64,000 nucleotides of DNA from a virus. Positions 4,610 through 22,282 of this stretch are shown one piece after another (the stretch's first letter is position 1; every line of letters starts with the position of its first letter). The notes beneath the pieces were generated by a model. That model saw only the letters and a list, made by a program, of their open reading frames with translations, did not search any database and was not told where the DNA came from. The stretch spans positions 26,320-90,319 of IMG/VR virus record IMGVR_UViG_3300024264_000015, one strand, 5' to 3'. The position numbers and the translations under genes are program-made.

Positions 4610-4610
4610 T

Positions 4611-4859
4611 ATGGTAGACATTGAAAAATTAAAAAAGAAATTAGAGAGTAGTATAGTTTTGATAACTTTTGAATCTCTAAAAAGTGGAGAAATATACAAT
4701 AGAGAGTACACTCTTTCTAAAAACTATTTACCTTTACCTAATCATATATCTAGACAGTCTGGAGATAGACTTATAGTATGGGATGTAGAGTTTCAGAAAT
4801 GGGAAGACTTACTCCTTACGACAATACTAGAATGGAAAACCATGGTGGACATTGACTAA
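4611..4859 (+). CDS. SH3-like small protein (DUF2693-type)
   Basis: This is an 82-aa protein with the layout of the small phage SH3 beta-barrel proteins: a strand-rich core that begins with a change-the-text motif (ITFESLKSGEIYNREYTLS), then NYLPLP and a closing LIVWDVEFQKWEDL strand pair. These proteins occur next to replication and metabolism genes in marine T4-like and other phages, with unknown role. The start lies 1 bp after the previous stop and its stop overlaps the ATG of the asparagine synthetase gene, so it is translated as part of that operon. Confidence 0.55.
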   Translation: MVDIEKLKKKLESSIVLITFESLKSGEIYNREYTLSKNYLPLPNHISRQSGDRLIVWDVEFQKWEDLLLTTILEWKTMVDID

Positions 4860-6373
4860 TGTGCGGATTCGTAGTATCAAATAAATCAGGTGTAGTTAGA
4901 GAAGCACTTATCAGACAAAGGCATCGAGGCCCTGACGCGGTTTCTATGTGGAAAGGTCAAGGATTAGAAATGGGACATGTTTTGCTAGATATAAATGGTA
5001 GTAAAACAATACAGCCTTACACAACAAAGAAAGGAAATGTATTAGTATTCAATGGCGAAATGTATAACTGTCCAATAGAGAATGATACTGCTTGGCTAGG
5101 AGAAGGTATGGATAGATATGGCATACGTTTCTTAGAGTATAATAATTGGCATGGCGCAGTTGCATATCTAAATATAGAGAAGAACGAACTACTAGTAACA
5201 AGAGACCACTTTGGTGCTAAGCCTCTATGGTTTCAAATGCTATCTCCAACAGAGTGGATGTTTAGTACAAGTTTAAGAAGTATGGTACATAAAAAAGTTG
5301 ATGAAAAACACAAACCTTCTTTCTTGTTTAATCCTATATGGCAGGGAACAAGTTGTCCGTACCAAAATACTTGGAAAGTAGCACCTGGTCAGACCTTTAA
5401 GTTTGACTTAAATAATCCAGGAGAAAGAGTACATAAAAATTTATGGGATTATTATAGAATAGAATCTAGAAGATTTAAAAAGGAAAGAGTTAGAGAAAAA
5501 TTAATAACAAGTATACAATCTATTGCTAAGAATAAACAAAAAACAGGAATATTTTTAAGTGGCGGACTAGATAGTACGTTTGCTTTGGCAGCTGTAAAAG
5601 ATATGGGATTAGACCTTACAGCTTATATATTGGCATATGATGAAAAGAAAGGGTCTATACAAGACCATAATACTTTTAGAAATGAATCTAAGATGGCGAT
5701 ACAGACTTGCAAAGAATGGAATATACCATATAAAGTTGCAACTCTACATGAAGAAAATGTAGAGCATTATGGTAAGATGTGGATGAATTATACTCACTTT
5801 CCTTGGACTGATAGACTAAGACAAGCACCTAGATTTTTATTAGCAAAGACTGCTTCTGAAGATGGGTGTAAGGTCATACTTACAGGAGATAGTGCAGACG
5901 AGTTATTCACAGGATATTATCATCACGACAAAAGATTTGAAGAAGGGTACGATGATGAGACAGTAAAAAGAGCAGAAAAGATGAACTGGACTCCGAATAA
6001 AATATGGCATAAAACAGACCACTGGAATAATGGTTTATTTTATGATTTATTAGTAACATCAGAACAAAACGTACTTGCAGCTGACCAGACCTGTGGTATG
6101 TTTGGTATGGAGTCAAGACCTGTATTTTTACAACAAGATTTTGTAAGATGGATATTTGAGCAAGATGGAGAAATTAAGTTCAAAACACACCCCGATTATC
6201 CTAAAGGAACATATAAGTATATTTTAAGAGATTTACTAGGTGATATGTTGCCTGAGCATGTACGAAACAGAAAACAAAAAACAGGGTGGTCAAGTCCTTG
6301 GAACAATAATATAAAAAAATTACAACAAAAATGGAGGAATCAAGATTGGGAAACACTGAAAAGTTATCAATAG
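4859..6373 (+). CDS. asnB: Asparagine synthetase (glutamine-hydrolysing)
   Basis: This 504-aa enzyme transfers ammonia from glutamine to an adenylated carboxylate, normally aspartate. The N-terminal class II amidotransferase domain starts directly with Cys2 (MCGFVVS) and keeps RHRGPDAVSMW, FNGEMYN and TRDHFGAKPLW. The synthetase domain has the PP-loop FLSGGLDST and LTGDSADELFTGYYHHD. All catalytic residues appear intact. The gene lies between a 2OG oxygenase and a cytidylyltransferase and in the same arm as several glycosyltransferases. Either it supplies asparagine for protein synthesis or it amidates a sugar or other acid in a glycan pathway; AsnB-like enzymes do both in bacteria. The sequence alone does not separate these. 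Confidence 0.92.
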   Translation: MCGFVVSNKSGVVREALIRQRHRGPDAVSMWKGQGLEMGHVLLDINGSKTIQPYTTKKGNVLVFNGEMYNCPIENDTAWLGEGMDRYGIRFLEYNNWHGAVAYLNIEKNELLVTRDHFGAKPLWFQMLSPTEWMFSTSLRSMVHKKVDEKHKPSFLFNPIWQGTSCPYQNTWKVAPGQTFKFDLNNPGERVHKNLWDYYRIESRRFKKERVREKLITSIQSIAKNKQKTGIFLSGGLDSTFALAAVKDMGLDLTAYILAYDEKKGSIQDHNTFRNESKMAIQTCKEWNIPYKVATLHEENVEHYGKMWMNYTHFPWTDRLRQAPRFLLAKTASEDGCKVILTGDSADELFTGYYHHDKRFEEGYDDETVKRAEKMNWTPNKIWHKTDHWNNGLFYDLLVTSEQNVLAADQTCGMFGMESRPVFLQQDFVRWIFEQDGEIKFKTHPDYPKGTYKYILRDLLGDMLPEHVRNRKQKTGWSSPWNNNIKKLQQKWRNQDWETLKSYQ

Positions 6374-6762
6374 GATTTACTTGTGGAGCCTTTGACTTAC
6401 TTCATGCAGGGCATATAGTAATGCTCAAAGAAGCAAAAGAAAACTGCGACTATTTAATAGTAGGATTACAGACAGACCCTAGTCTAGATAGACAAGAAAA
6501 GAATATACCTGTTCAATCTGTATTTGAAAGATATATACAACTACGAGCAGTGAAGTACATAGACGAAATTATTCCATATGATACAGAACAAAGTCTACTA
6601 GACTTACTAGAGGCTACAGAAATACATCTTCGATTTGTCGGAGAGGATTATGTCGACAGACATTTTACAGGCAAAGGACTGCATGAGATTTTTTACACAA
6701 GTAGACAGCACTCTTTTTCTAGTACGAATTTGAGAAATAAGATACATGAAAGCAGTTCTTAG
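6346..6762 (+). CDS. Cytidylyltransferase (glycerol-3-phosphate type, TagD-like)
   Basis: This small nucleotidyltransferase would join CTP to a phosphorylated alcohol or sugar (glycerol-3-phosphate in TagD) to give a CDP-activated donor. Near the N-terminus is GAFDLLHAGHIVMLKEA with the HxGH nucleotide-binding motif, and near the end HSFSSTNLRNKI, matching the family's SSTxxR motif. An ATG at 6331 is in frame but has no Shine-Dalgarno. A TTG at 6346 has GGAGG (6333-6337) at an 8-nt spacing, so I chose TTG. Both starts lie inside the end of asnB. It is the only activated-precursor gene in the window and probably feeds one of the glycosyl- or glycerophospho-transferases encoded nearby. Confidence 0.85.
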   Translation: MGNTEKLSIGFTCGAFDLLHAGHIVMLKEAKENCDYLIVGLQTDPSLDRQEKNIPVQSVFERYIQLRAVKYIDEIIPYDTEQSLLDLLEATEIHLRFVGEDYVDRHFTGKGLHEIFYTSRQHSFSSTNLRNKIHESSS

Positions 6763-8026
6763 TAACAGAATATATTTAGAAGTAAATAAAGAAACACATA
6801 ATTCTATCGAGAAGGAACTTACTTATACAATTCCTGCTCGTATGCCTCAAGACCCTCCTTTAGTATTTAAAACAATTAGATACATAAAAGAAGGTTTAAT
6901 CTCCATACCTATTGGAAGAGTGGATTTAATACCAGATGATTACGAAGTAATCGATAAGCGTGTTACCTCACCAACAGAACATGCAGATTTTAAGTTTGAT
7001 TTACGACCTTCCCAAAAAGCGGTTCATGACGAGATAGATGACAATGCTATAGTAAACGCATGGGTAAGTTGGGGCAAGACATTTACAGGTTTAGCTATCG
7101 CAGCGAAGCTTGGTCAGAAAACATTAGTTGTTACCCACACAACTAACTTAAGAAATCAGTGGGAAAAAGAGGTAGAAAAATGCTTTGGAATTAAACCAGG
7201 CAGAATAGGTAGTGGAGACTTTAACACTAATGCTCCTATAGTTATTGGGAATATTCAGAGTTTATACCGAAAAATGACTGACATTAAAAAGATATTCGGG
7301 ACAGTTATTTTAGATGAAATGCACCACGTCAGCAGTCCAACTTTTACACGAATTGTAGATGAAATGCCTGCTCGTTATAAGATAGGCCTCACAGGAACAC
7401 TAGAACGAAAAGATGGGCGTCATGTGGTGTTTAGAGATTACTTTGGGCACAATGTATTTAAACCGCCTAAAGAGAACTATTTAATACCAAAGATTCATAT
7501 TGTAAAGTCAGATGTAATATTTCTTGATGGGGCGTATACTCCATGGGCAGAACGTATAAATCATCTAGCGTACAATGAAGAATATGTACATAGCGTAGCT
7601 CTGATTGCATCAAAGTATGCAGCACTAGGGCACAAAGTATTAGTAGTATCAGATAGAGTTGCATTTCTAAAAGCCTGTGCAAGATTGTGCGGGGATAATG
7701 CAGTATCAATCACTGGAGATATGGATTTTGAAGAAAGAGAAAATACTATGCAACTAATAAAAGAAGATAAAAATATTTTATTTGGAACACAGTCAATCTT
7801 TTCTGAAGGCATATCTTTGAATGATTTGAGTTGCCTAGTACTAGGTACTCCAGTCAATAATGACCCCCTTCTTACACAGTTAATTGGTAGGGTTATAAGA
7901 GATAAAGAAGGAAAACAACAACCAGTAGTGGTTGATATACATTTAAAAGGAAAAACAGCAGCTCGACAAGCAAATGCTAGAATGGGCTACTATATAAAAC
8001 AAGATTACGAGGTAAAAATATTATGA
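6746..8026 (+). CDS. SF2 DNA helicase (UvsW-like)
   Basis: This is a 426-aa ATP-dependent DNA translocase with the two RecA-like lobes of superfamily 2. Lobe one has the Q-region DLRPSQKAVHDEI, Walker A VSWGKTFTGLA, motif Ia VVTHTTNLRNQW, Walker B LDEMHH and motif III GLTGTLERKDGR. Lobe two has SITGDMDFEERENTM, LFGTQSIFSEGISL and LIGRVIRDKEGKQ with the arginine finger. The length and motif spacing fit phage UvsW-type helicases used in fork regression and recombination-dependent replication. The first 70 residues before the helicase core are family-specific. The ATG overlaps the cytidylyltransferase stop by 17 bp, and its stop overlaps the next start as ATGA. Confidence 0.9.
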   Translation: MKAVLSNRIYLEVNKETHNSIEKELTYTIPARMPQDPPLVFKTIRYIKEGLISIPIGRVDLIPDDYEVIDKRVTSPTEHADFKFDLRPSQKAVHDEIDDNAIVNAWVSWGKTFTGLAIAAKLGQKTLVVTHTTNLRNQWEKEVEKCFGIKPGRIGSGDFNTNAPIVIGNIQSLYRKMTDIKKIFGTVILDEMHHVSSPTFTRIVDEMPARYKIGLTGTLERKDGRHVVFRDYFGHNVFKPPKENYLIPKIHIVKSDVIFLDGAYTPWAERINHLAYNEEYVHSVALIASKYAALGHKVLVVSDRVAFLKACARLCGDNAVSITGDMDFEERENTMQLIKEDKNILFGTQSIFSEGISLNDLSCLVLGTPVNNDPLLTQLIGRVIRDKEGKQQPVVVDIHLKGKTAARQANARMGYYIKQDYEVKIL

Positions 8027-8919
8027 GTGTAGAAGTACAACTTAACTTAGAAAAAATGAGGCAGATGAAGATATTTCTTGCAACTCCAATGTATGGAGGT
8101 ATGTGTCATGGTCTATACACAAAATCTTTAATGGACACAACAAATGTAGCAATGCAGTACGGAATACCTATTCAGATTTATTATTTGTTTAATGAATCTT
8201 TAATTACTAGAGCAAGGAATTATTGTGTAGCAAACTTTTTAAAATCAGATGCTACGCATTTACTTTTTATAGATAGCGATATACATTGGAGCGCAATGGA
8301 CTTGATGTATATGTTACATATTGTAACAGAAAAACCAGAACTATATAGAATTATGTGTGCATTATATCCTAAGAAAACTATTGCTTGGGAGAAAGTATTG
8401 AAAGCAGCAAAGTCAGGAGAGTATGATGAAAAACCATGGGAACTAGAAAGATTAGGAGGGGATATGGTATTTAATCCGTTACCTGATGAGTACCCTGATG
8501 GAAGAGCACCTATCAATGAACCAGTAAAAATTAAAGAAGGTGCTACTGGATTTATGTTAATAGAAAGAAGTGTTTTTGAAGAGTATGCAGAAGCTCACCC
8601 CGAGTTACTATATACTCCTGACCATTTAAGAGAAGGAGAGTTTGCTTTAAATGAGAAGATTCATGCTTTCTTTGATTGTATTATAAATGACCAAAACAGG
8701 TATCTATCGGAAGACTACATGTTCTCCGAGTATTGTAGAAATCTAGGTATGGACATATGGGCATTACCTATGATAGAGCTAATGCATTGTGGTAGTTACG
8801 TATTTAAAGGTAGCATAGCAAGAATGGCGCAAGCCGATGTTCATGCTACAGTTGACGAGGAAACTATAATAAAAATGCAAAAGGCTAAAGCTGAAAAAGC
8901 TCAGAAAAATAGTTCTTGA
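8023..8919 (+). CDS. Glycosyltransferase, GT-A fold
   Basis: This 298-aa protein has a GT-A type nucleotide-sugar transferase core. After the KIFLATPMYGG strand comes the metal-binding DSDIHW (a DxD motif) within LLFIDSDIHWSA, and later GATGFMLIERSVFEE and EDYMFSEYCRNLG, which resemble acceptor-site and catalytic-base segments of such enzymes. No membrane segment is seen, so it acts in the cytoplasm. The donor and acceptor are unknown. A perfect promoter is built into its last codons: its TGA stop lies within the -35 box of the promoter for the downstream genes. ATG 8023 is used because it gives an ATGA overlap with the helicase; internal ATGs at 8056 and 8065 are possible. Confidence 0.8.
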   Translation: MSVEVQLNLEKMRQMKIFLATPMYGGMCHGLYTKSLMDTTNVAMQYGIPIQIYYLFNESLITRARNYCVANFLKSDATHLLFIDSDIHWSAMDLMYMLHIVTEKPELYRIMCALYPKKTIAWEKVLKAAKSGEYDEKPWELERLGGDMVFNPLPDEYPDGRAPINEPVKIKEGATGFMLIERSVFEEYAEAHPELLYTPDHLREGEFALNEKIHAFFDCIINDQNRYLSEDYMFSEYCRNLGMDIWALPMIELMHCGSYVFKGSIARMAQADVHATVDEETIIKMQKAKAEKAQKNSS

Positions 8920-8944
8920 CACGCGCTTAAAAATTTGTTATAAT
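8916..8944 (+). promoter_or_regulatory. Sigma70-type promoter P1 (TTGACA-N17-TATAAT)
   Basis: The -35 box TTGACA is at 8916-8921 and the -10 box TATAAT at 8939-8944, with a 17-bp spacer, so both match the consensus exactly. The upstream sequence AAAAATAGTTC is shared with the promoters at 32.78 and 57.77 kb. The predicted start is near 8951. The element overlaps the stop codon of the glycosyltransferase gene and would drive the ssDNA-binding, AhpC and SbcDC genes. Confidence 0.88.
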
Positions 8945-9337
8945 ATGTTACTATTTAATTGGAATAAGATAATAAGAGTAAGCAACGGAAATGTTGATGA
9001 TATGATTCAGATACTTAGAATCATTACTTACAAGATTCAACCAAAAAATTATTACGATAAAACATTTAAGTTTTATAAGCATAAATTCGGAGGCTCTAGC
9101 TTCATCCTAAACCCAAAGGATTTGCTAGAACGAGGAAGGGCATTGAGTGATAGAGAGGTTGTGGAGTATGCAGGTGTCGCATCATTCCGCAACTATTACG
9201 ACTATGTCCGCACAAAAGACACCACACTAGACCTCTTTGACTGTGAAGTTAGTGAGGAAATTATAAATAATAACAGACTGCTTGAGTTAAAAGATGGAAG
9301 GGTACACTTTTTATTCGAGGAGACAATGGAGAAATAA
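8945..9337 (+). CDS. Unknown protein upstream of the ssDNA-binding gene
   Basis: I do not recognise this protein. It is up to 130 aa, charged and soluble, with no cysteine motif or membrane segment. The longest frame starts at ATG 8945, but that codon directly follows the -10 box of promoter P1 and would lie upstream of its transcript. An in-frame ATG at 9002 (111 aa) is the first within the predicted mRNA, with only a weak GGA element before it. ATG 8945 could be used only on readthrough mRNA. Position next to the ssDNA-binding protein suggests a replication accessory, such as a helicase loader or regulator, but this is inference from context. Confidence 0.6.
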   Translation: MLLFNWNKIIRVSNGNVDDMIQILRIITYKIQPKNYYDKTFKFYKHKFGGSSFILNPKDLLERGRALSDREVVEYAGVASFRNYYDYVRTKDTTLDLFDCEVSEEIINNNRLLELKDGRVHFLFEETMEK

Positions 9338-9338
9338 A

Positions 9339-9971: not shown

Positions 9972-10489
9972 TTGGAGTAGGAGAGAAGTTCCCTGCCTTT
10001 ACACTGCAGGGTGTAGACAAAGATAATAACTTTGTACAAGTATCTGTCACAGAACAGTACGAACCTTTGAAAAAAGATTACACAGTTATATACTTCTATC
10101 CAAAAGACTTTACTTTTATATGTCCAACAGAAATTGCTGGAATGGATATATTAGTAGAAGAAGCTAATGTTATTGGTATTAGTGGTGATAATGAGTTTTG
10201 TAAATTAGCTTGGAAACAAGACAATGAACTTATAGGAAATATACAACATTCCTTAGCGGCAGATTGCGGCTTAGGACTATCTTCTAAACTAGGAATAGTT
10301 CACGAAGAAGTAGGAGTATGTTTTAGAGCTACTTATATTATAGACAGAAATGATATAATACAACATGTAAGTGTTAACGCACTTGACACAGGCAGAAATG
10401 CTCATGAAGTTCTTAGAACTTTACAAGGCATTAAAGCAGGTGGATTAACAGGGTGTGAATGGACACCTGGGGATGAACTATTAGGATGA
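9968..10489 (+). CDS. ahpC: Peroxiredoxin, AhpC/TSA family (2-Cys)
   Basis: This 173-aa thiol peroxidase would reduce hydrogen peroxide and alkyl hydroperoxides in the cytoplasm. The peroxidatic Cys52 lies in DFTFICPTE and the resolving Cys163 in GLTGCEWTPGDELLG near the C-terminus. FRATYIIDRNDIIQHVSVN matches the conserved C-terminal sheet of typical 2-Cys peroxiredoxins. The length is slightly shorter than bacterial AhpC (about 187 aa) but complete. It sits between the SSB and SbcD genes with ATGA overlaps on both sides, so it is firmly part of the phage operon. The phage-encoded glutaredoxin at 13.3 kb could help recycle it, although AhpF or thioredoxin of the host is the usual partner. 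Confidence 0.93.
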   Translation: MIGVGEKFPAFTLQGVDKDNNFVQVSVTEQYEPLKKDYTVIYFYPKDFTFICPTEIAGMDILVEEANVIGISGDNEFCKLAWKQDNELIGNIQHSLAADCGLGLSSKLGIVHEEVGVCFRATYIIDRNDIIQHVSVNALDTGRNAHEVLRTLQGIKAGGLTGCEWTPGDELLG

Positions 10490-11439
10490 TTTTATTTACA
10501 GCAGATTGGCATATTAAATTAGGACAAAAGAACGTACCAGTAGCGTGGGCTTGCTCTCGTTATCAAATGTTCTTTGAACAAGTGCAGGAAGCTGTAGATA
10601 ATCATGAAGTTAATCTTCACATCATAGGCGGGGACTTGTTTGACCGAGTCCCTTCTATGGATGAGCTTACTTTGTACTTTGATTTTGTAAAAAGAACAAA
10701 AGTAAGAACAATTATCTATGATGGCAACCATGAAGCCACTAGAAAAAATAAAACTTTCTTTGATAATTTAAAGAGAGTAACAAATGAATTAAATCCTCTA
10801 GTAAAAGTTATAACAGAAACTTACTATGAGGATGATTGGGCAATCTTACCTTATGCAGACTTGCATAAAAAGAAAAGTATAGAAATGATAGATGCAGACT
10901 ATTTATTTACTCATGTAAGAGGTGAGATACCTCCTCATGTTATGCCCGAAGTAGAACTAGAAAGATTTGATAAGTTTAAGGAAGTGTACGCAGGAGATTT
11001 ACATGCTCACGAGAATACTCAACGAAACATTGTATATCCTGGCAGTCCAATGACAACATCATTTCATAGAAATATTGTAAAAACTGGGTACTTAATAATA
11101 GACGATAACTGGGATTGGACATGGTATGAATTTGATTTACCACAACTAATTCGTAAGACTATCGAAGACCCAGCGGATATGGAACAAACTGACTTTCACC
11201 ATACTATTTATGAAGTCACAGGAGATGTACAAGATTTAGCAAAAGTTAAAAACTCAGACCTTCTTGACAAAAAAGTAGTACGTAGAGAAGTTGATGCTAG
11301 ATTAGATTTGAGCGGAGATTTAACTATGTCAGAAGAGCTTATAAAATATTTACAAGAAATATTATCGCTTGATGATGAAAAAGTTAGACAAATTATAGGA
11401 GTGTTTAATGATTATTCTTCAGAAGCTGAAGTGGGATAA
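10486..11439 (+). CDS. sbcD: SbcD/Mre11-type nuclease subunit (T4 gp47-like)
   Basis: This 317-aa metallophosphoesterase is the nuclease half of an SbcCD/gp46-47 complex, which processes DNA ends for recombination-dependent replication and may degrade host DNA. The metal-binding motifs are D7-x-H9 (TADWH), D50 and D53 (GGDLFD), N81-H82-E83 (YDGNHE), FTHVRGEI and GDLHAHE. A C-terminal extension of about 100 residues would bind the ATPase. ATG 10486 overlaps the AhpC stop as ATGA, and the 3' end overlaps the ATPase gene by 32 bp, as expected for obligate partners. Confidence 0.93.
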   Translation: MILFTADWHIKLGQKNVPVAWACSRYQMFFEQVQEAVDNHEVNLHIIGGDLFDRVPSMDELTLYFDFVKRTKVRTIIYDGNHEATRKNKTFFDNLKRVTNELNPLVKVITETYYEDDWAILPYADLHKKKSIEMIDADYLFTHVRGEIPPHVMPEVELERFDKFKEVYAGDLHAHENTQRNIVYPGSPMTTSFHRNIVKTGYLIIDDNWDWTWYEFDLPQLIRKTIEDPADMEQTDFHHTIYEVTGDVQDLAKVKNSDLLDKKVVRREVDARLDLSGDLTMSEELIKYLQEILSLDDEKVRQIIGVFNDYSSEAEVG

Positions 11440-13222
11440 TTGCTTCTCGTACGGAGAAGGTAATGAGTTGAATTTATCAGATGCAACTCTTACACAGTTA
11501 GTCGGAACAAACGGCGTGGGTAAATCCTCTATACCCCTTATATTAGAGGAAGTCTTATTTAACAAAAATAGTAAAAATGTTAAGAAGGCAGATATAGCGA
11601 ACAGATATGTTAACAAAGGATATGATATTAGCCTTGAGTTTAGTGTCGACAGTGATTTATATAATATTGCTGTTAGTAGGCGTACAAATCTCAAATGCAA
11701 ATTAACTAAAAATGGAGAGGATATATCTTCTCACACTGCGTCTAATACCTATAAAACACTAGGAGATATTTTAGGTATAGACTTTAAAACGTTTAGTCAA
11801 TTAGTGTATCAGAATACTAATGCATCATTACAATTTTTAACAGCAACAGATACAAACCGTAAAAAGTTCTTAATCGACCTATTAAAACTAGACGATTATG
11901 TTTCATACTTTGAAGTTTTTAAAGAAGCTGTACGTAACGTATCTAGTATGGTAACAACAGAGGAAGCCAAAATTGCAACTATTCAAAAATGGTTGACAGA
12001 CAATATTCTCGAAGATAGTTCCATACTCGAAAAGAAAATTTTACCAAAAATTAATGAAAAAGATGAAGAATCTTTACGTTCTTTACAAGTAGAGTTTGCA
12101 AATATCTCGGAAAAGAATAAAAATATAAATTTAAATGAAAATCTGAAACAACAGTTAAACTCAATAGATTTGCACGAAGCCAAAAGACTTATGGCTTTAC
12201 ATCCTGAGTTGAAAGATACCAAAGTTATATTGGAGGGTTTAGGAACGTGGCGTGCTGAAGAAATGCATGAACAACAAATGTTGAAGAAATATCAAGACCT
12301 AGCGGGTATGGAAAACATGGAGTGTCCAACTTGTGAAGGTGCGATTGATATTGACTTTGTAAATAGAATGATTGCTGAACATTCAGAAAGAGTTGAACAA
12401 ACACAACAATTCGCAGCAAAAGATAGACAAAATTTAGAAGAGGCAGAGGCAGATAATGAGATACATAGGAAAGCAAAGAAAGACATCGAGACTTGGGAAA
12501 CTCTCTACAGGGACATTGACAGGGAACTCCCAACTAAAGTCCTCAATGCAGAACAACTCCAAGAGCAGATTTCGGAACTTCGTACAAAGATTACCACTGC
12601 TAGGGAAACTTTTCAAGAGGTAATAGATGAGAATGAAAAAATTGAAAGACATAACACAAGAATTGGAATTATTCTTGAACAAACGGAACAGTTTGAGAGC
12701 GACCTTAGTAACAGCGAGTCTAAACTTAAGAGTGCAGAAACAAAACTGGCGGTACTTGAAACACTTAAAAAAGCGTTCTCAACCAATGGACTCCTCGCGT
12801 ACAAGATAGAAAGTTTAGTAAAAGAGTTAGAGATTCTCACAAACGAATATCTAGCAGAGTTTAGTGATGGTAGATTTGCCATCAATTTTGTAGTGGAGAA
12901 TGATAAATTAAATGTGGAAGTCTCAGACAATGGCAATATTATTGACATCCTTGCTCTTTCTAGCGGCGAGTTAGCCAGAGTAAATATTGCAACACTAGTA
13001 TCAATTAGGAAGTTAATGACTTCAATTAGTAGAAGTCAAATTAATGTTCTTTTCCTTGACGAAGTAAACCAGGCGTTAGACGAAGTCGGAAAAGAAAAAG
13101 TAGTAGAAGTGTTATTAAAAGAAGAAACCTTAAATACTTATATGGTATCACATGGTTGGACACACCCTCTACTAGAGAAAATAGAAATAACAAAAGAGGA
13201 TAACATTAGTTATCTTGAATAG
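11408..13222 (+). CDS. sbcC: SbcC/Rad50-type ATPase subunit (T4 gp46-like)
   Basis: This is a 604-aa SMC-like ATPase. Walker A is GTNGVGKSS at residues 33-41, followed by ABC head sequence to about residue 170. Coiled-coil arms follow and meet at a zinc hook C306-P-T-C309 (MECPTCEGAI). The second coil leads to the signature motif LSSGELARV near 517 and Walker B VLFLDEVNQAL with D551/E552. The short coiled-coil arms are typical of phage gp46 rather than bacterial SbcC (about 1000 aa). It works with the adjacent nuclease subunit in DNA-end processing. It ends 18 bp before the next promoter. Confidence 0.93.
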   Translation: MIILQKLKWDNCFSYGEGNELNLSDATLTQLVGTNGVGKSSIPLILEEVLFNKNSKNVKKADIANRYVNKGYDISLEFSVDSDLYNIAVSRRTNLKCKLTKNGEDISSHTASNTYKTLGDILGIDFKTFSQLVYQNTNASLQFLTATDTNRKKFLIDLLKLDDYVSYFEVFKEAVRNVSSMVTTEEAKIATIQKWLTDNILEDSSILEKKILPKINEKDEESLRSLQVEFANISEKNKNINLNENLKQQLNSIDLHEAKRLMALHPELKDTKVILEGLGTWRAEEMHEQQMLKKYQDLAGMENMECPTCEGAIDIDFVNRMIAEHSERVEQTQQFAAKDRQNLEEAEADNEIHRKAKKDIETWETLYRDIDRELPTKVLNAEQLQEQISELRTKITTARETFQEVIDENEKIERHNTRIGIILEQTEQFESDLSNSESKLKSAETKLAVLETLKKAFSTNGLLAYKIESLVKELEILTNEYLAEFSDGRFAINFVVENDKLNVEVSDNGNIIDILALSSGELARVNIATLVSIRKLMTSISRSQINVLFLDEVNQALDEVGKEKVVEVLLKEETLNTYMVSHGWTHPLLEKIEITKEDNISYLE

Positions 13223-13239
13223 CAACACAAAAGTATATC

Positions 13240-13268
13240 TTGACATGAAACTTATTTTCTGTTATAAT
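13240..13268 (+). promoter_or_regulatory. Sigma70-type promoter P2 (TTGACA-N17-TATAAT)
   Basis: The -35 box TTGACA is at 13240-13245 and TATAAT at 13263-13268 with a 17-bp spacer. Upstream is AAAAGTATATC, similar in position and A-content to the other four promoters but less close to AAAAATAGTTC. It lies in the only gap of the right part of this arm and feeds glutaredoxin, nucleases, ribonucleotide reductase and the glycosyltransferases. The first gene has GGAG at 13280-13283. Confidence 0.88.
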
Positions 13269-13288
13269 ATATATCTTATGGAGAAAAA

Positions 13289-13516
13289 ATGAAAGTAGAA
13301 ATTTATAGTATACCAAATTGTACTTATTGCAAGAAGGCTAAGTTTTTAGCTGACCATGTAGATGAAGTAACAGAGGTGTCATATAAAATGATTGGCAAAG
13401 ATTTTTCTGCGTCTGATGTTAGAGAACTATTTCCTGGTGCTAGGACATTCCCACAAATACTTGTAGACGATAAGCACATTGGCGGCTACATAGAACTGGA
13501 GAAGTTAATTGGTTAA
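13289..13516 (+). CDS. Glutaredoxin
   Basis: This 75-aa protein is a dithiol glutaredoxin with the thioredoxin fold. The redox pair is C11-T-Y-C14 in SIPNCTYCKKA, the cis-proline loop is ARTFPQILVD and the glutathione-binding segment is HIGGYIELEKL. It is full length for a phage glutaredoxin. It is first in the operon that also carries nrdA and nrdB, so its most likely task is to supply electrons to ribonucleotide reductase. ATG 13289 follows the GGAG at 13280 and the promoter ending at 13268. Confidence 0.92.
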   Translation: MKVEIYSIPNCTYCKKAKFLADHVDEVTEVSYKMIGKDFSASDVRELFPGARTFPQILVDDKHIGGYIELEKLIG

Positions 13517-13997
13517 TGGTAGACAGAAAGGTAATAACGCAGAAATAAAAGTAGCAGAAATGTTACACAGATATACAGGAGAAGCTTTTGTACAAACCCC
13601 AGGCTCAGGTAGTGGTAAGATAAAAGGCGACTTAATGGTAGCACACAAAGAAAACTTGTTTGCTATAGAAGTAAAGTTCTATAGAGATATGTCTTTTAAC
13701 CACAAAATGTTTACACAAAAAAGTAATAAATTTGTAAACTGGTGGAGTAAGATAGTGAAACAAGCTGAGCAAATGAAACAAGAACCTATATTGTTCTTCA
13801 AAGAAAACCACTCACAATGGTATGTGGCAACGACAAGAAAGCCACTTTACAAAAAACATATGTACTTTAATTGGCTAGGTTGCTATGTAACTTTAGCTGA
13901 TAAATTTTTAGAAACACAAAACATGGAATTTACAAATGGCGATACAATTTATGAACCATGGAAAGCCGACCCCGAATGGGAACTTATTGATTGTTGA
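13509..13997 (+). CDS. PD-(D/E)XK nuclease, Holliday-junction-resolvase-like
   Basis: This 162-aa protein has the archaeal-type resolvase layout: an N-terminal GNNAEIKVAEML with the helix Glu, then KGDLMVAHKENLFAIEVKFYRD, which gives the Asp and the E-x-K of the nuclease core. It should cleave branched DNA or structured ends during replication and packaging. Start TTG 13509 is supported by GGAG at 13498-13501, 7 nt upstream; no in-frame ATG exists nearby and the start overlaps the glutaredoxin stop. The C-terminal half has no recognised domain. Another DNA repair nuclease of the same fold is possible. Confidence 0.75.
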   Translation: MVNGRQKGNNAEIKVAEMLHRYTGEAFVQTPGSGSGKIKGDLMVAHKENLFAIEVKFYRDMSFNHKMFTQKSNKFVNWWSKIVKQAEQMKQEPILFFKENHSQWYVATTRKPLYKKHMYFNWLGCYVTLADKFLETQNMEFTNGDTIYEPWKADPEWELIDC

Positions 13998-14787
13998 TGG
14001 ACTCAATCTGGCTTTTCGATGGAAACACCAAGGTAATACTGACTTCGAGCATGATTATGTAAGAACTGTTCAGTCTTTGGCAAAGTCCTATAACTGTGGA
14101 GAGATAGTCGTTTTAGGCGACGGCGGTAGTAACTATCGTAAGGAAATCTATCCAGAGTATAAAGCAAATCGTAAAGAACGATATGCAGAACAAACAGAAA
14201 AAGAAGCAAAAGAATTTGAAATGTTCTTAGCAGAATTTTCAACTACTTTAAGTGCGTTAAAGCGTAAGGGATATCTTACGCTTAAATATCCTGGAGTAGA
14301 AGCTGATGATATTGCAGCTCTTATTTGTCAAAACAGAGAAGAGTTAGGTCTCGATGAGATTTGGATGATATCTTCAGATAGAGACTGGGATTTACTAGTC
14401 GATGGTAATATAAGTAGATTTTCTACAGTTACCAGAAAAGAAACAACACTCCTAAATTGGGACGAGCATTATGACTTTGACCCTGAGTACTTTTTAACAT
14501 ATAAGTGCTTAACTGGAGATAAAGGAGATAACGTTCCTGGTGTTGATGGAATCGGGCCTAAAAGAGCCACACAGATTATACAACAGTATGGAGATATCTT
14601 TGATATTATGGCGAGTTTGCCAATGGAAGGAAAGTACAAATTCATTCAGAACTTAAATGAGTTCGGAGAAGAAGGACTAGAGATTGGTATTAAACTCATG
14701 GATTTAACTTATGACGTAGACGGTGCTGTCTTAGGTCATGCAGAAGAAATTATAGGATTAGTAGAAGATTATGTCAGTAAAAATTGA
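13936..14787 (+). CDS. 5'-3' exonuclease, FEN/RNase H (T4 rnh-like)
   Basis: This 283-aa flap-endonuclease-type enzyme would remove RNA primers and flaps, supplying the activity missing from the phage polymerase. The core starts with LLIVDGLNLAFRW (first metal Asp), then GDGGSNYRKEIYPEYKANRKER (the bridging region), PGVEADDIAALIC, SSDRDWDLLV and the helix-hairpin-helix GDKGDNVPGVDGIGPKRA. The start is uncertain: ATG 13936 gives a 17-residue leader inside the previous gene, ATG 13951 a shorter one, and TTG 13984 starts right at the core. The 3' end overlaps nrdA by 17 bp. Confidence 0.9.
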   Translation: MAIQFMNHGKPTPNGNLLIVDGLNLAFRWKHQGNTDFEHDYVRTVQSLAKSYNCGEIVVLGDGGSNYRKEIYPEYKANRKERYAEQTEKEAKEFEMFLAEFSTTLSALKRKGYLTLKYPGVEADDIAALICQNREELGLDEIWMISSDRDWDLLVDGNISRFSTVTRKETTLLNWDEHYDFDPEYFLTYKCLTGDKGDNVPGVDGIGPKRATQIIQQYGDIFDIMASLPMEGKYKFIQNLNEFGEEGLEIGIKLMDLTYDVDGAVLGHAEEIIGLVEDYVSKN

Positions 14788-16543
14788 TTTTAGTAAAGAC
14801 AAACTTTTAGATGATTTTGCATTAGCAACTCTAAAAGATAGATATATGGTAGGTGATGAAACTTCACCACAAGAAGCTTTTGCTCGTGCTGCAATGGCTT
14901 TTGCAGATGATGACGACCATGCACAAAGGTTATATGATTATGTAAGTAAACTATGGTTTATGTTTGCTACGCCTGTATTATCAAATGGAGGTACTCGCAG
15001 AGGACTTCCCATTAGTTGTTTTTTGAACTATGTAGACGATAGTAGAGAAGGAATAACAGACCATTTTACAGAAAATGCGTTCTTAAGTTCTTTCGGTGGT
15101 GGTATCGGAGGACATTGGTCTGATGTTAGGTCTATGGGAAGTAAAACTTCTAAAGGGTCTGAATCGACTGGTGTGATACCATTCATGAAAGTGGTAGATG
15201 CAGAAATGCTTGCTTTCTCACAAGGGGTTACAAGAAGAGGAAGTTATGCAGCGTATCTACATATTAGTCACCCAGAAATAGAGGAGTTCTTAGATGGAAG
15301 AAAACCCACTGGTGGAGATGTTAATAGGAAGTTCACTAATCTGCATCATGGTATTGTTATACCTGATGCTTTTATGGAACTAATTCATAGAGCAAGTAAA
15401 GAAGAAGGCTTTGATGACTCTTGGGAATTAATTGACCCACATTCAAAAGAAGTAAAAAAAGTAGTATCTGCTAGAGCCTTATGGGTAAAGATATTACAAA
15501 ATAGAATAGAAACAGGAGAGCCCTATGTAATGTATGAAGATGCAGTGCAAAATGGATTACCTGAGTTTCAAAAAAGAAAGGGGTTACAAGTACATCACTC
15601 TAATTTATGTAGCGAAATTACTCTTGCTACTAATGAGGAAAGAACAGCAGTATGTTGTCTTTCTAGTGTAAATTTAGAGTATTATGATGAATGGAAAAAT
15701 CACCCTTCTTTTATCCCTGACTTAGTTAGGATGTTAGATAATGTATTAACATACTTTATTGAAAATGCACCTAGCCAATTAGATAAAGCTAAGTTTAGTG
15801 CTTACAGGGAGAGAAGCATTGGACTTGGCGCTATGGGGTTTCATGCATACCTGCAAAAGAATGGTATTCCATTTGAGAGTGCTATGGCAGGCGGTACTAA
15901 TTTAGAGATGTTTGCGTTTATAAAAAGACACGCAGACAACGAAACCAGAAAACTAGCAGCAGAAAGAGGCGCTTGTCCAGATGATGATTCTTGCACAGTA
16001 AGAAATGCTCATCTATTAGCGATTGCTCCTAATGCTAGTTCTAGTATTATTTGTGGAAACACAAGTCCAAGTATTGAGCCATTTAGAGCCAATGCTTATA
16101 CACAGAAAACAAAAACAGGAAGTAACCTAGTAAAGAACAAGTACTTAGATGCAATCATCAAAGAAAAAGTTACTCCTGAACTGTATGATGAAACATGGTC
16201 TAGTATAGTTGCGAACAAAGGAAGTGTTCAGCACTTAGATATACTAGACGAGTGGGAGAAAGATGTATTCAAAACAGCAGTTGAAATCAACCAGGCATGG
16301 GTAGTGGAACACGCTTCAGTCAGACAAGAATTTATTTGTCAGTCTCAAAGTGTGAATCTATTCTTTCCACCTGATGTAAATAAAGGGGATTTGCACAATG
16401 TACATATGTTAGCATGGGCAAAGAACTTAAAAACATTATATTACCTAAGAAGTGAAGCTATCGGACGTGCCGATAATGTATCTTCTCAGGCTAAAAGAGA
16501 GATAATCTTTGAACAATCAGATTGTCTAAGTTGCGAGGGATAA
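14771..16543 (+). CDS. nrdA: Ribonucleotide reductase class I, large subunit
   Basis: This 590-aa subunit reduces ribonucleotides to deoxyribonucleotides. The active-site residues are C83 (LPISCFLNY), N278-C280-E282 (NLCSEITL), C295/C296 (AVCCLSSVNL), the tyrosine pair in KTLYYLRSEA and the C-terminal redox pair C585/C588 (DCLSCEG). The N-terminal ATP-cone is missing: the catalytic region begins within about 60 residues, so dATP feedback inhibition through that domain should be absent. It is shorter than E. coli NrdA (761 aa), as is usual for phage forms. It is followed directly by nrdB and preceded in the operon by glutaredoxin. Confidence 0.95.
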   Translation: MSVKIDFSKDKLLDDFALATLKDRYMVGDETSPQEAFARAAMAFADDDDHAQRLYDYVSKLWFMFATPVLSNGGTRRGLPISCFLNYVDDSREGITDHFTENAFLSSFGGGIGGHWSDVRSMGSKTSKGSESTGVIPFMKVVDAEMLAFSQGVTRRGSYAAYLHISHPEIEEFLDGRKPTGGDVNRKFTNLHHGIVIPDAFMELIHRASKEEGFDDSWELIDPHSKEVKKVVSARALWVKILQNRIETGEPYVMYEDAVQNGLPEFQKRKGLQVHHSNLCSEITLATNEERTAVCCLSSVNLEYYDEWKNHPSFIPDLVRMLDNVLTYFIENAPSQLDKAKFSAYRERSIGLGAMGFHAYLQKNGIPFESAMAGGTNLEMFAFIKRHADNETRKLAAERGACPDDDSCTVRNAHLLAIAPNASSSIICGNTSPSIEPFRANAYTQKTKTGSNLVKNKYLDAIIKEKVTPELYDETWSSIVANKGSVQHLDILDEWEKDVFKTAVEINQAWVVEHASVRQEFICQSQSVNLFFPPDVNKGDLHNVHMLAWAKNLKTLYYLRSEAIGRADNVSSQAKREIIFEQSDCLSCEG

Positions 16544-17506
16544 ATGAGCAAACTATTAGAAGAAAGAGATTATTATAAACCTTTTGATTATCCTTGGGCA
16601 TTTGAGTTTTACAAAAAACAACAACAAATGCATTGGCTACCTGAAGAAGTGCCACTCCAAGATGACATCAAAGATTATAATGTAAAACTATCAGAAGGCG
16701 AGAGGAAACTTATAGATAACATATTTAAGTTTTTTACACAAGCCGATGTAGATGTATGTTGTGGATATGCAAAGCATTATCTTCCAACATTTAAAGTACC
16801 AGAAATAAGAATGATGCTAGTAAGTTATGCTGCTATGGAAGCAGTACACCAAGAAGCGTATTCTTTATTGCTGGAGACATTAGGAAAATCAGATGACCAA
16901 TACACAGAGTTTTTTGAAATACAAGCTATGGCAGAAAAGCATGAGTATTTAACTGATTTTAATATGTCAAACCCACACGAGATTGCAAAGACAATGGCAG
17001 TCTATAGTGGTTTTACAGAAGGAGTACAACTATTTAGTAGTTTTGCTATCCTTTTAAACTATCCAAGACATAATCTTATGAAAGGTATGGGGCAGATAGT
17101 AACATGGTCTATAAGAGACGAGTCACTTCACGTTGAAGGATTATCAAAACTCTTTAGGGCTTTCATTGCAGAAAATCCAGAAATATGGACAGATAAACTA
17201 AAATATGAGATATATTGTGCAGCAGAGCGCGTTGTTGAATTAGAAGATAAGTTTATTGATGTTTGTTTTGATAAAGCAGATATCAAAGATTTAACAGCAA
17301 AAGAAGTGAAAGAATACATAAGATACATCGCCGATAGACGATTATTAGGTCTTGGTATGAAAGCAATATTCCATAGTACAGTTAATCCACTTCCTTGGAT
17401 TGATATGCAAGTAAATGCAGTTGAGCATACCAACTTTTTTGAAAACCGTGCTACTGAGTATGCTAAGGCTAGTACACAAGGCAATTGGCAGGATATATTT
17501 AAATAA
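16544..17506 (+). CDS. nrdB: Ribonucleotide reductase class I, small subunit
   Basis: This 320-aa ferritin-like subunit holds the radical cofactor. The metal ligands are visible as D68 or D70 (TQADVDVC), E99 and H102 (MEAVHQEAY), E159 (GFTEGVQL) and E193-x2-H196 (RDESLHVEG). Y106 sits 7 residues after E99, matching the radical Tyr122 of E. coli, so this is a tyrosyl-radical enzyme and not a phenylalanine (Mn/Fe class Ic) form. The ATG directly follows the nrdA stop with no gap, and the stop overlaps the next start. It forms the holoenzyme with NrdA. Confidence 0.95.
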   Translation: MSKLLEERDYYKPFDYPWAFEFYKKQQQMHWLPEEVPLQDDIKDYNVKLSEGERKLIDNIFKFFTQADVDVCCGYAKHYLPTFKVPEIRMMLVSYAAMEAVHQEAYSLLLETLGKSDDQYTEFFEIQAMAEKHEYLTDFNMSNPHEIAKTMAVYSGFTEGVQLFSSFAILLNYPRHNLMKGMGQIVTWSIRDESLHVEGLSKLFRAFIAENPEIWTDKLKYEIYCAAERVVELEDKFIDVCFDKADIKDLTAKEVKEYIRYIADRRLLGLGMKAIFHSTVNPLPWIDMQVNAVEHTNFFENRATEYAKASTQGNWQDIFK

Positions 17507-17718
17507 TGAATAATTTACCAGAGTCCATAGAAATCGATGGTGTAACGTATTATACTGATGATATGGCAGAAAACCAAAGGCTTATTCTACTAGCTATAAG
17601 TCAATGTGATATAGAGTTAGATAGAGCAAAGCACATGATGGCTATTTGCCAAACAGCGAGACAAGCATATATAAATGATTTAGGTACACAACTTAAAGAA
17701 GATGCAAAAGAATCTTAG
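17506..17718 (+). CDS. Small coiled-coil protein, DUF6447-like
   Basis: This 70-aa protein has a short beta motif SIEIDGVTYYTDDM followed by one long helix (AENQRLILLAISQCDIELDRAKHM) with an ICQTARQAYINDLG ending. That order, an IDG-x-Y-x-TDDL strand turn and a helix ending with a TARxAY segment, is the pattern I associate with DUF6447-type small proteins common in marine phages. Function is unknown. It overlaps nrdB (1 bp) and the next glycosyltransferase gene (17 bp), so it is translated between them. Confidence 0.6.
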   Translation: MNNLPESIEIDGVTYYTDDMAENQRLILLAISQCDIELDRAKHMMAICQTARQAYINDLGTQLKEDAKES

Positions 17719-19021
17719 ATTTTATATATTAGTAACTCATACTTTACACAAGGTTCAAAGACACTTTTCTTACTCAGGAATACAACCTAAGGAAGCTATG
17801 GTAGTTATAAATACTACTAATGATGTTTTCTATAAACAATGTAGCAACTGGTGTGAATCGCAAGGCATACCATGGATTCGTACAGAATCTGATGGTACAC
17901 CTGCGACTGGAAAGAATAGTGTCTTGGATTTGTTTTTAAAAAGTAAAGATGATTATATGGTAGCTGTAGATGGTGATGATTATATCACTAAATATGGCTA
18001 TGCTTATTATAAAAATGTTGTAAACCAAGATAACACCCCCGATAGTTTATGTCTATATAAACAACAATCCCAACTAATCACCATTTTTGGTCAAAGAATA
18101 TGGATTAATCTTATGGGACTCCCCACAGATTTAGATACTGAAATGCATATACGTAGAAGTCATTTAATGGGAGAAGTGTACGCACACCATTTAAAAGATT
18201 ATTATGAAGAAAAGTATGGAGACCTAGAACTATATGTAGAAGATTGTTTGAAACATACAAAAGAAAATTTATATTATGTCTATAAGTATTATGAAAGATA
18301 TAAAATATATGATAACGATTTTGCAGAATCTCATTGTAGACCTGTATTGTTTTCCAAAGCAGCAGCAAAAGAATGTCATTTTCCTAGTAATGTACCTGTA
18401 GGAGAAGATACTTTAGTATATTTACAACTTAAAAATGCACATTTTCAAGGAAGAATACATACTGAACTAGTAGATGAACTAAAAGAAAATATGACTTATC
18501 TTTATGACTGTATAAAAGCGGACGGAGACGATTTAGGAGCTATGCTAGGAATTACTCTTAATCAGACAGACTATACTTGGGTACGTTTAATAAATATAAA
18601 ATTAAAAGAAATGGAACAAAAAGGAGAGTTACATGCTATTCCGCTACCTGTAAATAATTGTTTACCAAGTAAGTGGAAAAAAGATAACATAATACCTGCA
18701 AGACCCCAGTTTCCTCTTGATTTTAATTTAAAGAAATGGGATGAAAGATGGGAAGACAAACCCCAATACGATAAACCAAGTGATAAAGCTATGGAATTAA
18801 TAGATAATATAAGAATGTGTGAGTATTATGCGTCTACGGAATCTGGAGTAGTATTGCAAATAATAGAACAACAAAAAGAAAACAAAAAACAATTATTAGA
18901 AGTTTTAGGCCTAAGTCCTAATGCTATGGTCAAGTTTCCTAAAGGCTACTTTAAAAACTCTAGACCTTACTTTCACCACGCTACTCCTCAAGAAGTAGCA
19001 CAACTTTATCCAAAATCATGA
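17702..19021 (+). CDS. Glycosyltransferase, GT2-like with C-terminal extension
   Basis: This 439-aa protein starts with a GT-A nucleotide-sugar core: FYILVTHTLHKVQRHF, AMVVINTTND, the loop SDGTPATGKNSVLDLFL, then VAVDGDDYITKYG, where DGDD is the metal-binding DxD of GT2 enzymes. VPVGEDTLVYLQL fits the catalytic-base region (ED). The last 150 residues are helical and charged and may hold the acceptor or a partner. There is no membrane segment, so it acts in the cytoplasm. It is first of three glycosyltransferase genes in a row, overlapping the next by 4 bp. Donor and acceptor are unknown. Confidence 0.8.
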   Translation: MQKNLRFYILVTHTLHKVQRHFSYSGIQPKEAMVVINTTNDVFYKQCSNWCESQGIPWIRTESDGTPATGKNSVLDLFLKSKDDYMVAVDGDDYITKYGYAYYKNVVNQDNTPDSLCLYKQQSQLITIFGQRIWINLMGLPTDLDTEMHIRRSHLMGEVYAHHLKDYYEEKYGDLELYVEDCLKHTKENLYYVYKYYERYKIYDNDFAESHCRPVLFSKAAAKECHFPSNVPVGEDTLVYLQLKNAHFQGRIHTELVDELKENMTYLYDCIKADGDDLGAMLGITLNQTDYTWVRLINIKLKEMEQKGELHAIPLPVNNCLPSKWKKDNIIPARPQFPLDFNLKKWDERWEDKPQYDKPSDKAMELIDNIRMCEYYASTESGVVLQIIEQQKENKKQLLEVLGLSPNAMVKFPKGYFKNSRPYFHHATPQEVAQLYPKS

Positions 19022-19647
19022 AAATCTTTATAGGTTATGAATCTGCATACCCACAAATGTTTGACGTCTGTGCAAAAAGCATAAATCGTTACAATTCCAA
19101 TCATGAAATCATACCACTCAAAAAATCGGAAATATCCGAATATACTCGTCCTTTTCAGAACGAGAGTACAGAGTTTGCCTTTACTCGTTTTCTAGTACCA
19201 CAGCTCTGTGACTACGAAGGGGAAGCTTTATTCTGTGATGGAGATTTCTTATGGCTCTGTGACCCTGAAGAAGTTATGGATTATTTTTCCGATGAACATA
19301 CAGTTCATGTGGTAAAACATCCTAGTTTCCTCGTCAAACCTAAGAAAATGAAAAACAAGAAAAACCATGCTTATCCTAGAAAATACTGGTCAAGTCTTAT
19401 GCTTTTCAATAATCCTAAGTGTAAAGAACTTACTTATGATTATGTAAACCAAGCCCCAGCGGGTGCATTGCATGAGTTACATTGGGCAGATAGTATAGGG
19501 GAACTTCCTGCGCAGTATAATGCCATGGTAAATTATTACAAATTCAAGAGACCAAAAGCACTCCACTATACAGACGGCGGGCCTTGGTTAAATATAAACG
19601 AGTGTTCGGAGTACACAGCAAAATGGATGACACTTTACAAAAGTTAA
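19018..19647 (+). CDS. Glycosyltransferase, GT8-like
   Basis: This 209-aa protein has the GT-A pattern of small phage glycosyltransferases: it opens with KIFIGYESAYPQMFDVC, then STEFAFTRFLVPQL and ALFCDGDFLWLCDPEE, where DGD is the DxD metal site. HYTDGGPWLN near the C-terminus resembles the conserved His-containing end of GT8-like enzymes. The ATG overlaps the previous stop (ATGA). Base composition is slightly less AT-rich than its neighbours at the 3' half. Substrate unknown; it should act with the adjacent sugar-transfer enzymes. Confidence 0.78.
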   Translation: MKIFIGYESAYPQMFDVCAKSINRYNSNHEIIPLKKSEISEYTRPFQNESTEFAFTRFLVPQLCDYEGEALFCDGDFLWLCDPEEVMDYFSDEHTVHVVKHPSFLVKPKKMKNKKNHAYPRKYWSSLMLFNNPKCKELTYDYVNQAPAGALHELHWADSIGELPAQYNAMVNYYKFKRPKALHYTDGGPWLNINECSEYTAKWMTLYKS

Positions 19648-20273
19648 CAGAAGATAAAAATATTATACTTGTGGGAAATTCAGTGGAAATGTTGGAGCAT
19701 GAGTATGGGGAGTACATAGAAAAGTTTGATACAATTGTACGATTTGGAAATGGTATACCTGATAAACACCCTAAGAATATGGGCACTCGCACAGATATAT
19801 GGATTACAGGGTGGCTTCGTATGATTAAACATAAACATTTTCCAACCGCGTATAAATTATTCAATCGTTGCAGAATACACTTGGATATAAAACCTAAAGA
19901 AATGAAACCTGAGTTTGAATATGAGACTATGTTCGATGATGACGAATTAAAAAATATTTATAAAATGGTAGGGGCAAAGAATAATGTGAAGATGGGAAAT
20001 AGACCGAGTGCAGGTTTCTTAGGTATATTATTTTTTCTTACTAAAACCAATCCTAAGTCAATTACTCTAATTGGCTTTGACTTTTTCTCTAAAAAATTAC
20101 CTTTTAAAAGTGGCAATGATTACCCTGCAAGTTGGCATCTACCACACAATTCACAAGAGGCTAGTCCGCATAATATTATGGAAAAACCACTTGTGCAAAA
20201 ATGGGCAAAGGAAGGTAAGTTGAAATGGAAAATCTTATCTGACTTGAACGAAGAGTTCTTAGATTTTTCCTAG
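19623..20273 (+). CDS. Glycosyltransferase family 29 (sialyltransferase-like)
   Basis: This protein of about 216 aa has the sialylmotifs of GT29. Motif L is IILVGNSVEMLEHEYG followed by FDTIVRFGNG, matching the VGNSGxL..YG..I...D.V.R.N pattern that binds the CMP-sugar. Motif S is RPSAGFLGILFFL plus ITLIGFDFF. A His lies in the SPHNIMEKPL segment where motif VS is expected. GT29 enzymes use CMP-activated sugars. The likely start is ATG 19623, which overlaps the previous gene by 25 bp; a longer TTG-started frame from 19584 has no support. Its last codons overlap the 3' end of the opposing gene by 15 bp. Confidence 0.82.
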   Translation: MDDTLQKLTEDKNIILVGNSVEMLEHEYGEYIEKFDTIVRFGNGIPDKHPKNMGTRTDIWITGWLRMIKHKHFPTAYKLFNRCRIHLDIKPKEMKPEFEYETMFDDDELKNIYKMVGAKNNVKMGNRPSAGFLGILFFLTKTNPKSITLIGFDFFSKKLPFKSGNDYPASWHLPHNSQEASPHNIMEKPLVQKWAKEGKLKWKILSDLNEEFLDFS

Positions 20274-22143: not shown

Positions 22144-22282
22144 TCTTTAACTCAAATAATTGTGTTTCTATATTTTTTAATCTATCTTCTTGTTCTACGA
22201 TTGTGTCCATTAGTGCTACAACGATGCTTTCTAGTTTATCGTTGACATACTTGGGGGTTATATCTTTGTCCTTTAGTTTCAT
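22124..22282 (-). CDS. Small coiled-coil protein, 52 aa
   Basis: This short gene starts at ATG 22282, directly after the stop of the Thr-rich fibre gene, and ends at TAA 22124-22126. The product is highly charged and helical: KDKDITPKYVNDKLESIV followed by a heptad-like region ALMDTIVEQEDRLKNIETQL. It resembles short fibre-associated chaperones or trimerisation helices. Its start is set by the TAA-ATG junction, and its 3' end overlaps the next start by 20 bp. Function unknown; a fibre-assembly role is inferred from position. Confidence 0.7.
   Translation of the reverse strand: MKLKDKDITPKYVNDKLESIVVALMDTIVEQEDRLKNIETQLFELKNGTKNK

Follow-up and report, generated by a model that had tools for sequence, protein, structure and literature searches.

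The serine-rich repeat protein (SRRP) adhesins are low-complexity Ser/Thr repeat proteins encoded beside dedicated glycosyltransferases (GTs). In the mycobacteriophages Che8, Corndog and Myrna, the capsid or the tail tube is reported to be glycosylated by phage-encoded GTs (Freeman 2023, as cited in PMC12363180), and a plant member of family GT29, RCKT1, has been reported as a CMP-Kdo (cytidine monophosphate-activated 3-deoxy-D-manno-octulosonic acid) transferase (PMC11288761). We have analysed the sugar-related genes of a 64,000-nucleotide stretch of viral DNA, hereafter the window (bases 26320-90319 of the 90,319-base IMG/VR record IMGVR_UViG_3300024264_000015; GC 0.357), in which genes are named by their start position. 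A previous, sequence-only reading of this DNA had proposed a possible phage glycan pathway, with an asparagine synthetase (AsnB), a cytidylyltransferase and at least four GTs. This pathway is well supported, and it is larger than that reading had seen, a Thr-rich protein and glycan-type genes upstream of the window, possible further parts of it, having been missed. The Thr-rich protein, a predicted tail fibre, is paired in many phages with gM2, a putative GT of GT-B fold, and the best explanation of the locus, which we think probable if by no means certain, is a system dedicated to the O-glycosylation of a Thr-rich virion fibre.

The Thr-rich repeat protein and its pairing with gM2

The gene of the Thr-rich protein, which the sequence-only reading had missed, is located between gM2 and g25703, directly upstream of gM2. 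Its product, without any match in PHROGs or Pfam, is composed of 35% T, 12% S and 11% N (58% for the three together). Its ends are conserved over ~50 amino acids at the N-terminus (MAIYVNDSGTLRQISFLAINDSGT...) and ~35 at the C-terminus (FERITAS.AGT.FDTEV...WDGS.W), and in the middle only even spacings (6, 10, 16 and 20) are kept, with a signal that reaches z=14-20 against shuffles and that is absent from the neighbouring fibres. This even spacing fits the alternating beta strands of a fibre shaft. In complete relatives, an open reading frame (ORF) of 752-1621 amino acids and 34-39% T is always present in the same place, the sequences being often no longer alignable, and ORFs cut by contig ends reach up to 2670 amino acids and up to 45% T. 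Thr-rich ORFs are scarce elsewhere, with 1 of the 96 ORFs in the window's record, 1 of 38 in Lullwater and none among the 141 of a 100-kb stretch of KVP40.

The pairing of this protein with gM2 is found in both directions of search. When gM2 is used as the anchor, a Thr-rich ORF is adjacent, on the same strand, in 75 of the 76 loci with upstream room, and when the anchor is a DNA pattern for TTFNTTTT, which is blind to gM2, gM2 is found at most 1.5 kb downstream in 74 of the 89 contigs that contain a Thr-rich ORF followed by enough sequence (among the matches listed, as for all results of this reverse test), both fractions being descriptive, as the contigs are related and are not independent samples. 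At the single miss of the first test, in DLP_6, an Ig-like repeat fibre occupies this position and continues over the record ends. The 15 misses of the reverse test have a methyltransferase-like gene next (8 contigs) or T4-like structural genes (5), with 2 remaining. In the eight former contigs (L221, L232, L289, L305, L304, L312, L201 and L267), the methyltransferase-like gene sits between two tandem Thr-rich genes and could act on the fibre or on the sugar attached to it; gM2 follows ~2 kb further on, after the second Thr-rich gene, in four of them, and the contig ends there in the other four. The five T4-like contigs (L210, L241, L254, L261 and L297) encode very long Thr-rich proteins (26-37% T) beside other structural genes, and these may be another kind of Thr-rich structural protein.

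The pairing extends well beyond the clade of the window. At single-linkage thresholds of 40% and 50%, gM2 separates into 9 and 15 clusters respectively, among the matches listed, and most gM2-bearing contigs from the reverse test have no other gene of this clade. A second lineage (L209, L213, L220, L279, L292 and L306) also has GT29 and GTA3, two GTs of the window, at 37-40% identity. The Caulobacter autographivirus Lullwater has a 215-amino-acid Thr-rich repeat protein, gp41, directly upstream of its gM2 homolog, gp42, and in KVP40 a Thr-rich gene (.0254), a coiled-coil gene (.0255) and gM2 (.0256) follow each other, an arrangement shared by QD01 and BL199. In F86, D484 and D479, translated search reveals an unannotated Thr-rich gene that immediately precedes those of the coil and of gM2. 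Small ORFs judged by eye to be similar to the predicted coiled-coil ORF of the window (22124) are in the same place in KVP40 (.0255), QD01, F86, D484, D479 and DLP_6 (001). In the shorter Thr-rich proteins of named phages the spacing is mostly 4, not 6 or 10, suggesting that a kind of repeat, and not an exact unit, is shared across lineages. The pairing appears to be new to the literature searched: no description of it was found in the searchable literature on GT29 in phages, on phage fibres rich in Thr or on the glycosylation of fibres, most subscription journals being outside this search. In the Vibrio phages F86, D484 and D479 (L182-L184) and in L188-L190, Thr-rich ORFs of 170-185 amino acids fall in gaps of the published annotations, from which they were probably dropped as low complexity.

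The AlphaFold model of gM2 (predicted local distance difference test, pLDDT, 78.3) has as nearest folds in Foldseek the Kdo transferases WbbB, KrkA and KpsC, together with TagF (E from 2.6e-4, probability 1.0, template modelling score, TM-score, ~0.4), which bears out the GT-B-like nature that had been assigned to this gene. Members of the KVP40 type match GT52 and Capsule_synth weakly, and gM2 has an HP motif in common with these transferases. In the profile search with the named-phage members, KpsC is reached weakly (E=0.62); the profile of these members is homologous to that of the window's clade (E=6e-34). The adjacent gM1, formerly a possible further enzyme, has a GT-A fold: the nearest structures to its model (pLDDT 83.5) are those of xyloside xylosyltransferase, UGGT and glycogenin (E ~1e-6, probability 1.0). 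It has no match in named phages, and KVP40.0257, tried as a homolog, was rejected (hhalign probability 1.9).

Plus-strand enzymes and the sugar donor

Among 59 loci fetched with a GT29 gene, ~58 are syntenic (IMG/VR), the exception, L062, being a distant match. Wherever the contig reaches, the order SbcD-SbcC-Grx-Endo-Exo-RNR-g17506-(GTA2)-GTA3-GT29 is kept, facing gM1-gM2-Thr-rich-fibre, and all the sugar-related genes of Table 1 except GTA2 are conserved in order across the clade. Long records extend the synteny to GTA1, AsnB and the cytidylyltransferase, the latter two being present in every long record that reaches this region, and to genes located upstream of the window (GT8, JmjC cupin, NodU-type carbamoyltransferase and an SGNH-like gene). 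GTA2 and an NDP-sugar (nucleoside diphosphate-sugar) epimerase/dehydratase are lineage-specific. In the window's own record (G000), the upstream genes at 9987-26264, which encode the GT8, the JmjC cupin, the NodU-type carbamoyltransferase, the SGNH-like protein, the NDP-sugar dehydratase/epimerase and a methyltransferase, are possible further parts of the glycan pathway.

Table 1. Features of the locus, with their coordinates in the window and the basis of each assignment.
Feature	Coordinates	Strand	Basis
AsnB-type glutamine amidotransferase/synthetase	4859..6373	+	Pfam Asn_synthase E=9.5e-31; starts MCGF
CTP_transf_like enzyme (PECT/TagD-type)	6331..6762	+	Pfam E=2.9e-14
GTA1, GT-A-like glycosyltransferase (phrog_1574)	8023..8919	+	invariant FIDSD
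GTA2, putative GT2-like glycosyltransferase, lineage-specific	17702..19021	+	DGDD and GEDT motifs only
GTA3, GT-A glycosyltransferase	19018..19647	+	invariant D-x-D; H-x-T-D-G-G-P-W at C-terminus in clade
GT29 sialyltransferase-family enzyme	19623..20273	+	PF00777 E=1.2e-6, above cut-off
gM1, GT-A-fold protein, clade-specific, closest GT8/GT24	20259..21239	-	structure model
gM2, GT-B-fold putative glycosyltransferase	21232..22143	-	KPHPIT and NSEMG invariant in clade
Predicted coiled-coil ORF, 52 aa, between fibre gene and gM2	22124..22282	-	sequence
Thr-rich repeat protein, 1138 aa, predicted tail fibre	22283..25699	-	composition, position, repeats
Tail fibre protein (phrog_892), neighbour of Thr-rich gene	25926..29801	-	PHROGs match

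The enzymes named by the sequence-only reading on this strand are partly confirmed. AsnB has its N-terminal Cys and both the GATase and synthase domains, with a score under the NCBIfam asn_synth equivalog cut-off. The proposed TagD-like cytidylyltransferase belongs to the expected family, with an HxGH motif present as HAGH, but it begins at its first ATG, 6331, and not at 6346, and it scores better with PECT (E=8e-22) than with TagD (E=3e-15), in both cases under the NCBIfam equivalog cut-offs; it resembles phosphoethanolamine/glycerol-phosphate cytidylyltransferases. Two of the three GT-A enzymes stand on their motifs together with other evidence, namely the glycosyltransferase annotation of GTA3 homologs and, for GTA1, a weak PHROGs match to phrog_34859 'glycosyltransferase' (E=8.6e-5). 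GTA2 has no matching model in Pfam, PHROGs or NCBIfam, and its GT2-like reading depends on its two conserved motifs. As for GT29, which is found in 6 of the 7 clade records and in DLP_6, its ORF is open from TTG 19584, relatives beginning at ATG 19623. A profile of 15 relatives matches pig ST3Gal-I (E=2.2e-5, residues 7-171), followed by ST6Gal1 and ST8SiaIII; the sialylmotif L/S region (VGNS...YG..IDSFD..VRF and PSAGF...GFDFF) aligns to ST3Gal-I in this profile. In the C-terminal motif III/VS region, as read by eye, SWH172, H183 and E187 are invariant, the spacing being HxxxE or HxxxxE according to the lineage. Pattern scans of GTDB genomes gave no bacterial relatives of either GT29 or gM2.

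The pace of divergence separates these genes. Mean identity to the window is 82% for replication genes and 81% for the cytidylyltransferase, which thus behaves like a replication-operon gene, against 69% for GTA1, 62% for GTA3, 59% for gM2, 57% for GT29, 51% for AsnB and 40% for gM1. The cytidylyltransferase had been proposed to make a CDP-activated donor; the enzyme is real, but its membership of the glycan pathway is doubtful and it is unlikely to supply a donor to these GTs, an enzyme of the PECT/TagD kind being predicted to perform a chemistry other than CMP-sugar supply. The divergence of AsnB at the pace of the GTs fits the glycan role suggested for it and says nothing of its substrate, the proposed amidation of a sugar acid included.

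GT29 had been expected to need a separate supply of CMP-sugar, and rightly so. No CMP-sugar synthetase (PF02348) is found in 10 phage records (the window's and nine others), whereas the same search is positive in 11 of the 14 genomes used as controls. A phage source of CMP-sugars is accordingly rejected. The fold relatives of gM2 use CMP-Kdo or CDP-glycerol, and the GT29 family CMP-sialic acid or, in plants, CMP-Kdo. As the phage has no CMP-sugar synthetase, the host is the likely source, and its CMP-Kdo, or a sugar related to that, probably serves as donor.

The DNA polymerase and the large terminase of the window phage are closest to those of T5-like phages, at 43% and 49-50% identity respectively, and its clade consists of marine phages with T5-like replication genes; the tip protein of its tail is lambda-J-like (phrog_31). 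Several 2OG-Fe(II)-oxygenase-like genes are found in this one phage, at 3998-4609 (+) and 59328-60038 (-) in the window and at 4305-4811 (-), 4801-5355 (-) and 13080-13736 (+) in the record; the call at 3998 comes from Pfam, 13080 matches DUF6445, and the remaining three were made by eye. A NAD-dependent DNA ligase is seemingly split in two genes (record 16719-17687 and 20309-21067), both kept in relatives. At the extreme end of the record, a CHASE2/adenylate cyclase-like gene (62773-63990, -), of bacterial type as judged by eye, may derive from the host or mark a chimeric end of the contig.

Target of the glycosyltransferases

The sequence-only reading had left the host surface, the capsid or fibres, and DNA as possible targets. 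As gM2 is paired with a Thr-rich protein in both directions and in many lineages, the virion fibre is favoured. A DNA target is not favoured. From the genes, we infer a place in the virion and a glycosylated state for the Thr-rich protein, and we likewise propose a first-acting enzyme and a sugar. The minus-strand genes (20259-25699) and the convergent plus-strand enzymes (17702-20273) would form a dedicated system. The phage would build a long, beta-structured Thr-rich fibre (22283-25699), and gM2, encoded directly behind it, would add a sugar to fibre Thr/Ser, or to a first sugar there, probably from a CMP-activated acidic sugar, such as CMP-Kdo or a CMP-nonulosonate, that the host makes for its lipopolysaccharide (LPS) or capsule. 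The glycan would be extended or capped by GTA3, by GT29, by gM1 and by lineage-specific enzymes, and its decoration could fall to AsnB and to the carbamoyltransferase, the methyltransferase and the NDP-sugar enzyme encoded upstream.

Besides the relatedness of the contigs, several observations weigh against a dedicated fibre-glycosylation system. The TM-scores of gM2 to solved structures are low, and gM1 has no DXD, A-G-G holding that place in most sequences, so that it may be inactive. Thr richness could serve beta-fibre packing alone. In at least five T4-like contigs the Thr-rich protein occurs with no gM2, GT29 is missing from KVP40 and Lullwater despite their gM2, and in Cr30 the neighbour of gM2 is small, with 19% Thr, under the threshold, and shows no periodicity.

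The GTs could alternatively remodel the host LPS or capsule, for example as a block to superinfection, the Thr-rich fibre being a mere neighbouring late gene. GT99/KpsC/TagF-like and GT29 enzymes normally make surface glycans; GTA3, GT29, AsnB and GTA1 are in or beside the replication/RNR operon and not in the tail operon, and GTA3 relatives in other phages adjoin methyltransferase and sulfotransferase-type genes. We nevertheless find this unlikely, as the pairing of gM2 with a Thr-rich gene recurs across lineages, contexts and both search directions, which a chance neighbour would not keep. That gM2, and gM1, would be fibre assembly or folding factors with a GT fold and no sugar transfer is more improbable still: the invariance of KPHP and NSEMG in the clade, the resemblance of gM2 to CMP-sugar enzymes and its occurrence, in two lineages or more, together with GT29 and GTA3 all argue against it, even though fibre chaperones typically adjoin fibre genes, gM1 lacks its DXD motif, and the small coiled-coil gene could also be an assembly factor. 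Finally, the enzymes could glycosylate a hypermodified base of the phage DNA: DNA is a common substrate of phage GTs (reviewed in PMC12619734), and AsnB and the CTP-transferase sit in the replication operon. However, a thymidylate-synthase-fold enzyme, the maker of hydroxymethyl-pyrimidines, is absent from the five records tested, which leaves DNA modification by this route unsupported, and the genes for gM2 and gM1 accompany those of tail fibres. We know of no DNA role for GT29 or GT99/KpsC-like enzymes, and we regard a DNA target as very improbable.

If the fibre is indeed glycosylated, many marine phages would expose fibres glycosylated from the sugar pools of their hosts, with effects on adsorption, particle stability and recognition. 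More tentatively, and against our own expectation, these fibres could be a widespread, undescribed class, in which a Thr-rich beta shaft is densely O-glycosylated with acidic keto-sugars (Kdo or nonulosonates), drawn by the dedicated enzymes from the LPS or capsule precursors of the host, to give a mucin-like coat of host-type sugars. 'Hypothetical' genes of well-studied phages, such as KVP40 and the podophages of Caulobacter, and of numerous viral contigs from the environment gain a concrete, testable role, directly so in the Caulobacter system, whose host is harmless, and a low-complexity fibre overlooked by annotation pipelines becomes linked to its likely modifying enzyme.

Comparison with described systems

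The locus resembles the SRRP systems in that a low-complexity Ser/Thr repeat gene is next to GTs. It differs from them by its phage, and not Gram-positive cell-wall, setting, by its even, beta-type spacing and by a repeat that is Thr-rich and not Ser-rich (34-45% Thr and 10-21% Ser in relatives' ORFs); SecA2/SecY2 export genes (accessory Sec) were not noticed in the ORF lists, in which no dedicated search was made. The enzymes themselves are related to known families. The GT29 enzyme of the window aligns, in the profile of its relatives, with ST3Gal-I, and a C-terminal His/Glu pattern, as read by eye, is conserved; unlike the sialyltransferases and RCKT1, it is phage-borne, has 216 amino acids and comes from a phage devoid of a CMP-sugar synthetase. 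gM2 has its best Foldseek matches in WbbB (GT99), KpsC, KrkA and TagF and shows an HP motif like theirs, and individual members of its family match Capsule_synth and GT52 weakly, whereas its TM-scores are low, its sequence link is weak and its partner is a fibre gene in place of a polysaccharide operon. Finally, as is reported for the mycobacteriophages, phage-encoded GTs would modify a virion protein. The targets reported there are the capsid and the tail tube, in contrast to the predicted Thr-rich fibre and the CMP-sugar-type GTs of the present locus, where the enzyme is locked to the fibre gene over many lineages.

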